A stretch of 64,000 bases of DNA from Cryobacterium aureum (lineage in GTDB: Bacteria; Actinomycetota; Actinomycetes; Actinomycetales; Microbacteriaceae), in the NCBI RefSeq assembly GCF_002954245.1, contig NZ_PPTG01000014.1:186001-250000 (forward strand), read 5' to 3'. The notes under the pieces are model-generated. The model saw nothing but the letters and a program-made list of their open reading frames with translations. It did not search any database and had not been told where the DNA came from. Position numbers and translations under genes: made by a program. Below are positions 24,441 to 28,664 of this stretch, piece by piece (position 1 is the stretch's first letter; every line of letters begins with the position of its first letter).

Positions 24441-25466
24441 TTAGACGGCGCTCGAAGCCGCCCACAGGTTGATGCCGTTGTCGACGGCGTGCACGTCAAT
24501 GGCGGTCAGTTCCTCGGCGGTGAAGTCGAGGTTCTGCAGCGCCCCTACATTCGCCTCGAGCTGCGCCACCGACGACGCTCCAATCAGGGCGCTCGTCACC
24601 TCGGAATTGCGCAGCACCCAGGCCAGTGCCAGCTGGGCCAGTGACTGGCCACGACCGGAGGCGATCTCGGTCAAGGCGCGGATATGGGTCAGCGCCTCGG
24701 CGCTCACCATGGACTTTTTCGCCGAGCCCTCCCGCGCCACGCGCGAGTCCGCGGGGATACCGCCGAGGTAGCGGTCGGTGAGTAGCCCCTGGGCCAGCGG
24801 CGAGAACGCGATGCAGCCGGCGCCGATGTCATCGAGCGTGTTGAGCAGGTCGTCCTCGACCCACCGATTGAACATCGAATAGGAAGGCTGGTGAATCAGC
24901 AGCGGGGTGCCGAGATCGGCCAGAATCGCGGCCGCTTCTCGGGTGCGTTCGGGCGAGTACGACGAGATTCCAGCGTAGAGGGCGCGGCCGCTCGTGACGG
25001 CGGCGTGCAGTGCGCCCATGGTCTCTTCGAGCGGGGTGTCGGGGTCGGCCCGGTGGGAGTAGAAGATGTCGACGTAGTCCACCCCCATGCGGGAGAGCGA
25101 CTGGTCGAGGCTCGACAACAGGTATTTGCGGCTGCCGAAGTTGCCGTAGGGGCCCGGCCACATGTCGTAACCGGCCTTGGTCGAGAGCACGAGTTCGTCG
25201 CGGTGGGCACTGAAATCTTCTCGGAACAGCTTGCCAAAGTTCGTTTCGGCCGAGCCGTAGGGAGGACCGTAGTTGTTGGCGAGGTCGAAGTGGGTGATAC
25301 CAAGATCGAAGGCCCGACGCAGAATGGCGCGCTGCGTTGCGAGCGGCTTGTCATCACCGAAGTTCTGCCACAGGCCAAGCGAAATAGCGGGAAGTTTCAG
25401 GCCGCTGCGCCCGGCACGACGGTAGGGCATGGACTCGTATCGGGATTCATTCGGAAGATAAGTCAT
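24441..25466 (-). CDS. Aldo/keto reductase (L-glyceraldehyde 3-phosphate reductase type)
   Basis: 341 residues, TIM-barrel aldo/keto reductase. YRRAGRSGLKLPAISLGLW, then GITHFDLANNYGPPYGSAE with the catalytic Tyr, LSTKAGYDMWPGPYGNFGSRKYLLSSLDQSLSRMGVDYVDIFYSHR (catalytic Lys and His) and the NADPH-binding ALIGASSVAQLEANV. The GPPYGSAE and GYDMWPGPYG signatures match the YghZ/AKR14 group, which detoxifies L-glyceraldehyde 3-phosphate and methylglyoxal. Its ATG overlaps the stop of the glycosyltransferase gene (ATGA), making it the last gene of a four-gene operon. Convergent with the helicase gene with no spacer. Confidence 0.88.
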   Translation of the reverse strand: MTYLPNESRYESMPYRRAGRSGLKLPAISLGLWQNFGDDKPLATQRAILRRAFDLGITHFDLANNYGPPYGSAETNFGKLFREDFSAHRDELVLSTKAGYDMWPGPYGNFGSRKYLLSSLDQSLSRMGVDYVDIFYSHRADPDTPLEETMGALHAAVTSGRALYAGISSYSPERTREAAAILADLGTPLLIHQPSYSMFNRWVEDDLLNTLDDIGAGCIAFSPLAQGLLTDRYLGGIPADSRVAREGSAKKSMVSAEALTHIRALTEIASGRGQSLAQLALAWVLRNSEVTSALIGASSVAQLEANVGALQNLDFTAEELTAIDVHAVDNGINLWAASSAV

Positions 25467-26236
25467 CTGAACATGATCCCATTCTTCTGTTCGACGTCGA
25501 CATGATCGCGCAGATAGCCGGCGAATCCGGCCGGGGTGCGTCCCTCCCGCCGGCCCGAGGTCAGCACGGGAATCAGCGCTGTGCGGGCCTCAACCACCGC
25601 CAGACTGCGTAGCGCGGCAACCAGCAGTACGTCTTCATCTCGGTCGACCGGCGCAAATTCGCCGGCGGCGAGGTAGCGATCAGCCCGCACGCCCAGGTTG
25701 GCACCGTGAACGTGCGGATGTCCTTCGGCGATCAGGTGCTGCGCCTCCCAGCGCAGCAGCTCGTGAGCGGCCAGATCGTCGTCGGGCTGCACAGTTCCGA
25801 GCACGAGCTCGGCCCCGTTACGGGCCAGGGCCAGCTGCGTTACCAGCCAGTTGGGGGGCACGGCCGAGTCTGCATCCGTCGTCGCGATCCAGATCTGTGC
25901 AGCGGATGCCGCGCCATCCGTTTGTGAATGCCACAGCCGTCTCAGCGCGTGCCGAATACCGTCACGGCGGGCTACGCCGACGGCTCCCGCCTCAATCTCG
26001 TGGCGGCAAAAAGAGGTCCAGTGTGCGGCAACGCGCGCGGACAGATCGATGCACTGGTCGAGCACCAGATGCACGAATACTTGCGGTCGCTCCGAAACCG
26101 GCACGACACTCAGCGCGTCGATTGCCGCAGACAGCGCGGTCAAGCAGCGCGGCAGCAGCACCTGTTCGTTGCGCACGGGAACGACGATCACCACGTCTGT
26201 GATCGGCACAGCGCCGATGTGCGCGAGCCCGGTCAC
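25463..26236 (-). CDS. GT2-family glycosyltransferase
   Basis: 257 residues. TDVVIVVPVRNEQVLLPRCLTAL is the nucleotide-sugar binding start of family 2 transferases, and the metal-binding acidic motif is in WIATTDADSAVPPNWL; DRDEDVLLVAAL is the later acidic motif. No membrane helices, so it is probably cytosolic. The GTG start at 26236 overlaps the stop of the PIG-L fusion gene (GTGA), and its own stop overlaps the reductase start. It is the kind of enzyme that pairs with a PIG-L deacetylase and a methyltransferase in making a modified small glycoside or a sugar-bearing surface compound, but donor and acceptor are unknown. Confidence 0.8.
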   Translation of the reverse strand: MTGLAHIGAVPITDVVIVVPVRNEQVLLPRCLTALSAAIDALSVVPVSERPQVFVHLVLDQCIDLSARVAAHWTSFCRHEIEAGAVGVARRDGIRHALRRLWHSQTDGAASAAQIWIATTDADSAVPPNWLVTQLALARNGAELVLGTVQPDDDLAAHELLRWEAQHLIAEGHPHVHGANLGVRADRYLAAGEFAPVDRDEDVLLVAALRSLAVVEARTALIPVLTSGRREGRTPAGFAGYLRDHVDVEQKNGIMFR

Positions 26237-27633: not shown

Positions 27634-28664
27634 GGTGCACTCCCCGTCATCATGAGCATGTGGCCCAACGCCGCATCATCGCGCTCGGCGTGGTGCTGCC
27701 GCACATACAGTTCCAGGTCGGCGACCCGCTGGGCATGCCGGGCGTCGAGGGCGAGTGGGGCTGGCCCCAGTGCATGCCCGATGTGGAATATAACGTCGTC
27801 TACCGTGCGGGCGACGATTCCGCGCACGCGTGCAGCGAGGATGGAACCGGCCGGCCCGTCGGCGGCACCGCCATCAATGTCTGCTGCGGCTGCTGCAAGT
27901 GCATATTTGGCCCCGGTCACGGCCAGGTCGACAGCTCCGAGGTGGGCGAGGGCGAGCTGGTCAGGAGCGCGACCCCCGGCGGAGTCGAAGAGTGTGCGCG
28001 CCAGTCCCACGGCACCGCCACACCACGCTGCTGCCACACCGATACCGCCCCAGGCGAAGCCCGGTCGGCTCAGGTACCATCCGTCGCCGCCGACCGGATC
28101 GGCAGCCACCTGCGAGAAATCGACCGGGCCGCTCGTCACCTGAGCGAGCCCGCGGGCCACCCAGACGTCGTCGTGCACGGTCAGACCGGGTTGACGCAGG
28201 TCGACGGCGAACAGCCGTCGACCTGGTGGGCCGTCCGCGCGAGCAACGTGTGCTGTCACGAGGGCGTGACTGAGAAGTCCGGCAAGCGAACACCACGGCT
28301 TGGTCCCGTCGAGCCGCCAGCCGCCATCCGCTGGCATGGCCGTCAGTGTCAGCCCAGGCCCCTCCGCCGCAAACACGCCCCACGTTTGGTCTGGCCGGGG
28401 CGGGTAGCCTGCCTGGTGGAGTATTGCCAGCGCGTCAAGGTGCGCCTCGACGACCCGAGCCGCCGTGAGGTCAGCGGCCGCGAGCGTCGAGAGGGCGTCG
28501 AAGAGCTGCATGGTGTGTCCTTCCCCCGGTCGGGGAACGGATGCGAGAGAGCTCGCGAGCGCCAGCGCCCGCCGCGCGTCACCGTTAACCGCTCGGGCAG
28601 CGGCGGCAAGATCACCCTGAACCGTGAGAAATTCTGCCGGCCTCAGTTTCGCTTCAAGCCTCAT
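27627..28664 (-). CDS. Acyl-CoA dehydrogenase-like flavoprotein
   Basis: 345 residues. The middle and C-terminal parts resemble acyl-CoA dehydrogenases: TWGVFAAEGPGLTLTAMPADGGWRLDGTKPWCSLAG is the beta-domain (GxxxLxGxKxxxS), and the end has a helical bundle (TVDDVIFHIGHALGPAPLALDARHAQRVADLELYVRQHHAERDD) with HAQRVADLELYVRQHH where the family has the FAD-contacting RxxRD segment. The usual N-terminal helical domain is shortened and the catalytic Glu cannot be placed, so it may oxidise something other than an acyl-CoA. First gene of the operon with the PIG-L fusion, GT2 and reductase genes. Confidence 0.75.
   Translation of the reverse strand: MRLEAKLRPAEFLTVQGDLAAAARAVNGDARRALALASSLASVPRPGEGHTMQLFDALSTLAAADLTAARVVEAHLDALAILHQAGYPPRPDQTWGVFAAEGPGLTLTAMPADGGWRLDGTKPWCSLAGLLSHALVTAHVARADGPPGRRLFAVDLRQPGLTVHDDVWVARGLAQVTSGPVDFSQVAADPVGGDGWYLSRPGFAWGGIGVAAAWCGGAVGLARTLFDSAGGRAPDQLALAHLGAVDLAVTGAKYALAAAAADIDGGAADGPAGSILAARVRGIVARTVDDVIFHIGHALGPAPLALDARHAQRVADLELYVRQHHAERDDAALGHMLMMTGSAPW

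Follow-up and report, generated by a model that had tools for sequence, protein, structure and literature searches.

Among described systems, the Nod-factor set combines a de-N-acetylase (NodB), a methyltransferase (NodS) and a family 2 glycosyltransferase (GT2). The same combination, with a methyltransferase of the NodS family, is found in a minus-strand operon of Cryobacterium aureum, located in the 64,000-nucleotide stretch of contig NZ_PPTG01000014.1 analyzed here (the window). However, the two sets differ in several respects: the window methyltransferase reaches 52.8 bits against the NodS model NF041650, under its equivalog cut-off of 300; a PIG-L (LmbE) deacetylase is used instead of NodB, a NodB-like enzyme of family CE4 being found in another lineage only; no NodA domain was found in the operon genes scanned; the GT2 is short (257 amino acids); and the operon has an additional flavoprotein. 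That three of these genes, conserved as one biosynthetic module and probably controlled by stress, make a small N-methylated amino-sugar glycoside with an oxidative step is an interpretation to which we give an even chance.

The individual parts also have characterized relatives. Diacetylchitobiose deacetylase, MshB, BshB and teicoplanin Orf2* share the AHPDDE and HPDH motifs with the window protein (profile matches of 2e-10 to 4e-23), which differs from these PIG-L/LmbE de-N-acetylases in being fused to a methyltransferase; no characterized member of its own PIG-L/LmbE subfamily was found. Among solved structures, the closest to the methyltransferase domain is PDB entry 4isc, labelled "Methyltransferase" only and presumably originating from Pseudomonas syringae; the family profile matches it over its whole 164 residues with 220 bits, followed by NodS (3ofj) with 106 bits. 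The open-licence literature searched describes no function for the gene set as a whole: PMC6240043, in the part available, lists neighbors of the light-sensor gene blsA only, and no function is given in the available parts of PMC7146990, PMC13130816, PMC8092242, PMC4101496, PMC5481743 and PMC12029717.

The operon genes and the two domains of the central protein are as follows.

27627-28664, minus strand: flavoprotein of the acyl-CoA dehydrogenase (ACAD) fold, core gene, 345 amino acids; predicted group-D-like oxygenase or oxidase
26233-27633, minus strand: PIG-L/NodS-like fusion protein, core gene, 466 amino acids; Pfam assignment
27142-27525, minus strand: PIG-L (LmbE) deacetylase domain of the fusion, residues 37-164 (PF02585, 4.2e-24)
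26410-26790, minus strand: NodS-like S-adenosylmethionine methyltransferase domain of the fusion, residues 282-408 (PF05401, 39.8 bits)
25463-26236, minus strand: GT2, core gene
24441-25466, minus strand: aldo/keto reductase (AKR) of the YghZ type, 341 amino acids; operon neighbor outside the conserved module

The serial overlap of the four minus-strand genes at 24441-28664, reported in the first-pass annotation, was borne out. The flavoprotein and fusion genes share 7 bases (27627-27633), the fusion and GT2 genes share 4 (GTGA, 26233-26236, read directly from the sequence) and the GT2 and AKR genes share 4 (ATGA, 25463-25466). The union of LmbE and NodS-like domains in one protein was equally evident, as PIG-L scored 85.9 bits (cut-off 28.2) and the NodS domain exceeded its cut-off of 24, which places both in their superfamilies. 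Both metal motifs, AHPDDE and HPDH (as GHPDH), are intact, and the PIG-L residues H42, D44, D45, E46, H151, D153 and H154 are invariant among 21 aligned proteins.

These data raise a key question: which of the four genes travel together in other genomes? Searches (E at most 1e-30) gave the fusion, entire or as halves, in 67 of 199 genomes of the same family and in 48 of 396 genomes of the same phylum, the window's own genome being counted in both. At 60 whole-genome loci, each covered by a fetched region of at most 18 kb, the flavoprotein was found in 60/60, the methyltransferase in 59, the GT2 in 59, PIG-L in 53 and a NodB-like CE4 deacetylase in 6; as the loci were chosen by the fusion or the methyltransferase, independence can be claimed for the flavoprotein and GT2 counts alone. 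The flavoprotein, deacetylase, methyltransferase and GT2 activities lie on one strand in 56/60 loci; all four are present in 58 loci, within less than 6 kb in 57 of them. In 40 control regions from the same genomes, the flavoprotein, PIG-L, methyltransferase, GT2 and NodB-like queries had no match (0/40 each); thus, the grouping of the four activities is not due to chance. Two loci are incomplete: L110 has neither PIG-L nor a NodB-like deacetylase, and in L106 the flavoprotein and PIG-L were matched and the methyltransferase and GT2 were not. In L102-L105 (Actinomycetota) the gene order is reshuffled to GT2, flavoprotein, PIG-L and methyltransferase, while the gene set is kept.

The flavoprotein, PIG-L and GT2 all stand beside the methyltransferase in 80/80 named loci, which are no even sample, since they are those nearest to the window methyltransferase (best 80 of 589 confirmed), and whose counts cannot be added to those of the 60 loci because at least six places are common to both. 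PIG-L and the methyltransferase are encoded by a single frame at 112 of the 154 loci scanned, are separate at 33 and were not assessable at 9, the 154 including some places counted twice. Clustering of open reading frames in the neighborhoods was noisy owing to shadow frames, and no counts were taken from it. Among the matches listed, the closest named ones to the methyltransferase domain are from Cryobacterium, with at most 97% identity. Therefore, the conserved unit consists of three genes, the flavoprotein, the PIG-L/NodS-like fusion and the GT2, occurs once in the window and is not confined to one strain; the four-gene set first proposed stands without its reductase.

The AKR was found near the module in 12 of the 80 nearest loci, all from Cryobacterium, and was rejected as a core member; as it accompanies the module only in part of that genus, it lies outside the conserved unit, and the earlier suggestion that it belongs to the pathway gives way to that of a local neighbor. 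It scores 232.9 bits for Aldo_ket_red and 515.2 bits for the YghZ model NF007388, over the cut-off (448) of a known stand-alone family, the L-glyceraldehyde 3-phosphate reductases. That the AKR nevertheless acts as a further pathway enzyme in Cryobacterium would agree with its ATGA overlap with the GT2, with the presence of AKR-family genes in 7/40 module loci versus 1/40 controls (p 0.028; two of the seven from the same genus) and with the induction of L-glyceraldehyde 3-phosphate reductase by drying in Curtobacterium, as stated in the available part of PMC12029717. We nevertheless consider this rather unlikely, given its membership of a stand-alone family, its absence from 68 of the 80 loci and, at two of the remaining 12 (L138 and L139), a gap of ~ 0.5 and 2.3 kb between it and the GT2.

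The strongest evidence for the chemistry of the module comes from the loci that have no PIG-L. In six of the seven such loci among the 60 (L108, L109, L111, L112, L117 and L120), a NodB-like CE4 polysaccharide deacetylase gene is present upstream of the flavoprotein gene, and a pyridine-nucleotide reductase gene, matched in 1/40 control regions, lies between the methyltransferase and the GT2 (6/6). As a test of this replacement, a fresh set of 20 further loci (19 genomes), in which the match covers mainly the methyltransferase, was fetched; it contained the CE4 gene in 19, the flavoprotein in 18, the reductase in 17 and the GT2 in 17, with a PIG-L match in 0/20 within the fetched stretch; in the sole locus without the CE4 gene, the contig itself starts within the flavoprotein gene. 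Altogether, 25 of these 26 loci (six and 20) come from one family and 1 from another. In L109, the best NCBIfam models are NodB for the CE4 protein (106.3 bits, under the cut-off of 240) and NodS for the methyltransferase (81.3 bits, under the cut-off of 300), and the reductase resembles the ferredoxin-NAD reductases of dioxygenase systems. PIG-L and NodB-like enzymes have unrelated folds, both known for N-deacetylation of acetamido sugars. The exchange of two unrelated deacetylase folds within one operon argues most strongly for de-N-acetylation as the step that they share. As judged from sequence, this supports de-N-acetylation followed by N-methylation, for which a NodS-family enzyme would be the natural next step. 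The proposal of an undescribed system combining glycosyl transfer, de-N-acetylation and N-methylation thus holds, with the NodB-like replacement as independent support for the deacetylation.

Could the fusion instead serve a pathway for a low-molecular-weight thiol that resembles mycothiol or bacillithiol and is possibly N-methylated? N-methyl-bacillithiol is a known thiol, such pathways share the logic of a glycosyltransferase followed by an LmbE enzyme, and the PIG-L domain is related to BshB1 (50.7 bits) and MshB (23.1-24.4 bits). However, these scores are far under the respective cut-offs of 182.5 and 224.35, as is that for BshB2 (35.8 versus 195.25), no Cys ligase is found among the core genes, and PIG-L is replaceable by a NodB-type deacetylase. 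A role in mycothiol synthesis, which the first-pass annotation had named as a possible objection to its own proposal, is rejected on scores and disfavored because two other genes of the window genome are better MshB-like matches (173.8 and 134.7 bits, both below 224.35). A thiol pathway is therefore highly improbable.

Another important question is whether the flavoprotein is an acyl-CoA dehydrogenase, as its first description implied. The fold stands, with Acyl-CoA_dh_M at 33.8 bits, just above the cut-off of 33.3; the identity as a classical dehydrogenase probably does not. At the catalytic position, in the C-terminal EGT-type loop, Glu or Asp occurs in 0/19 members and Gln323 in 19/19; an alternative alignment shifted by one column (His324) has His, Ser, Pro, Ala, Gln or Asn there, with no acidic residue among them. 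The ACAD-family paralogues of the window genome have Glu at this position in 8/11 cases. Some ACADs keep their catalytic base in the helix corresponding to residues 206-232, and no conserved Glu or Asp was found in this aligned helix. Without this Glu, a classical acyl-CoA dehydrogenase is an improbable identity for the flavoprotein. A true dehydrogenase of acyl-CoA or of acyl carriers, with a lipo-amino-sugar bearing a desaturated acyl chain as the product, would suit the fold; it is unlikely in view of the loss of Glu in both alignments, the helix without a substitute base and the lack of core genes for an acyltransferase or an acyl-CoA ligase.

With the group D flavin monooxygenases, the flavoprotein shares an ACAD fold that lacks the dehydrogenase base, and methanesulfinate monooxygenase, DszC, KijD3 and DnmZ are among its profile matches. 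ACADs and group D enzymes could not be told apart by structure searches. Two paralogues that were taken for group D (L269 and L276) have a comparable C-terminal loop and a Pro at position 323, whereas the flavoprotein differs from group D enzymes in its own invariant Gln323 and an ExH motif. As for a partner reductase, a ferredoxin-reductase-type gene adjoins the module in the NodB-type lineage and none is found in the window operon; the ferredoxin-NAD reductase-like neighbor fits an oxygenase. Group D enzymes and their N-hydroxylation are described in the available part of PMC5481743.

The GT2 is recognized by Glycos_transf_2 (PF00535; 28.4 bits, cut-off 23.3), and its residues D124 and D126 (DxD) and E204 and D205 (ED) are invariant in 68 sequences. 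Its structure model is predicted to be GT-A, with GT-A structural matches, which together with the DxD motif and the acidic base suggests a GT-A enzyme; the structure searches named no sugar donor.

The data show the protein families and the fold, the catalytic residues, the conserved linkage of the genes, the exchange of the deacetylase and the stress-gene neighbors; the order of steps, the substrates, an oxygenation and a protective role are inferred. First, the soluble GT2 would take an N-acetylamino sugar off a nucleotide donor and place it on an acceptor. The N-acetyl group would then be removed by the PIG-L domain, or by the NodB-like enzyme in the other lineage, and the freed amine would be methylated by the NodS-like domain, which in the window belongs to the same polypeptide. 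Finally, the flavoprotein, having lost the ACAD base, would oxidize or oxygenate the resulting compound, perhaps at its N-methyl amine.

The stress-gene neighbors were assessed at 40 of the 60 loci, hand-picked and each compared with one control region on the same contig. Dps, catalase, end-joining, photoproduct-lyase or ChaB-like genes were found in 16/40 module regions versus 0/40 controls (p 2.3e-6), a combined figure that is optimistic because the query list was partly drawn from neighborhoods already seen. Dps alone accounted for 11/40 versus 0/40 (p 2.2e-4), two of the 11 being from the same genus. The trehalose, ferritin-like and CsbD queries had no match in the 40 module/control pairs.

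The regions fetched from Acinetobacter, Bradyrhizobium and L092 each include a gene for a BLUF photoreceptor; these blue-light sensor genes near the module belong to three distant lineages (L207:11781-12251, L123:1633-2064 and L092). The available part of PMC6240043 lists the same four activities beside blsA in Acinetobacter baumannii, as flanking genes only and without function, their identity with the genes of the module not being stated there; in L207, likewise, a BLUF gene adjoins the module.

Several loci bring trehalose genes close to the module. On a Comamonas antarctica plasmid (L217:6544-11540), otsA, flavoprotein, PIG-L, methyltransferase, GT2 and otsB genes follow each other, overlapping or near-abutting; otsB and GH65 flank the module in Legionella lytica; in Acinetobacter soli, otsA is on the opposite strand at a distance of 1.6 kb; GlgE, GH65 and a HAD phosphatase-like gene adjoin the module in L113:207-6968; an OtsA match falls in the module region of L119; and GlgE lies ~ 6 kb away on a Cupriavidus plasmid. 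The module might thus decorate trehalose or a trehalose-linked solute, the acceptor supplied by OtsA/OtsB, with an N-methylated amino sugar. This seems doubtful, as OtsA and OtsB were found in 0/40 matched module loci, among all 60 loci OtsA occurs in L119 only and an OtsB-like gene in L113 only, the only OtsA-family gene of the window genome lies on another contig, and shared stress control accounts equally well for the proximity.

The module extends well beyond Actinomycetota. In a plasmid collection, the fusion matched 62 records and the flavoprotein 27, and 14 loci were fetched, from Acinetobacter (2), Deinococcus (2), Bradyrhizobium, Pandoraea, Kitasatospora, Sulfitobacter, Roseomonas, Paracoccus, Nostoc, Legionella, Comamonas and Cupriavidus, which represent Actinomycetota, Deinococcota, Pseudomonadota and Cyanobacteriota. 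By tblastn, the flavoprotein and methyltransferase were found in all 14, the GT2 in 13 (not in Roseomonas) and PIG-L in 13 (not in Cupriavidus, where an annotated PIG-L gene lies ~ 3 kb from the module on the other strand). The GT2 gene runs counter to the rest of the module in Deinococcus, Bradyrhizobium and Nostoc. In Deinococcus sp. AJ005 (L209:6572-8935), the flavoprotein is extended at its N terminus by ~ 400 residues without a Pfam match, which we take to resemble a family-1-type glycoside hydrolase; a family 1 glycosylhydrolase gene precedes the flavoprotein gene there. The module is thus widespread and, in the open-licence literature searched, functionally undescribed.

In the window itself, the operon is bordered by two further genes.

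28702-29190, minus strand: dps (Ferritin-like; PF00210, 77.7 bits), probable first gene of the transcript
21687-24440, convergent to the operon: SNF2-type helicase gene, abutting the AKR end

The end of dps, a gene that the first-pass annotation passed over, and the start of the flavoprotein gene are 37 bases apart on a common strand, no terminator-like site was found in 24000-30000, and dps probably heads the operon transcript. At 23570-23630, the helicase gene contains a 15-base repeat in four copies that encodes VTRGP/VTIGP units, and two small overlapping minus-strand frames at 20985-21706 resemble, by eye, a PIN-domain toxin and an antitoxin.

Tentatively, at least four phyla may share an unrecognized stress metabolite, an N-methylated and possibly N-oxidized amino-sugar glycoside made by Nod-factor-like chemistry outside symbiosis, with a deacetylase swapped between unrelated folds and a flavin oxygenase recruited from the ACAD fold. 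If so, this would be a common bacterial metabolite for which we found no report, with links to drying, to oxidative stress and perhaps to light stress, and spanning environmental, plant-associated and clinical bacteria. NodB/NodS-type chemistry would then operate outside symbiosis, and many genes annotated just as acyl-CoA dehydrogenase, PIG-L deacetylase, methyltransferase or glycosyltransferase would gain a first role.

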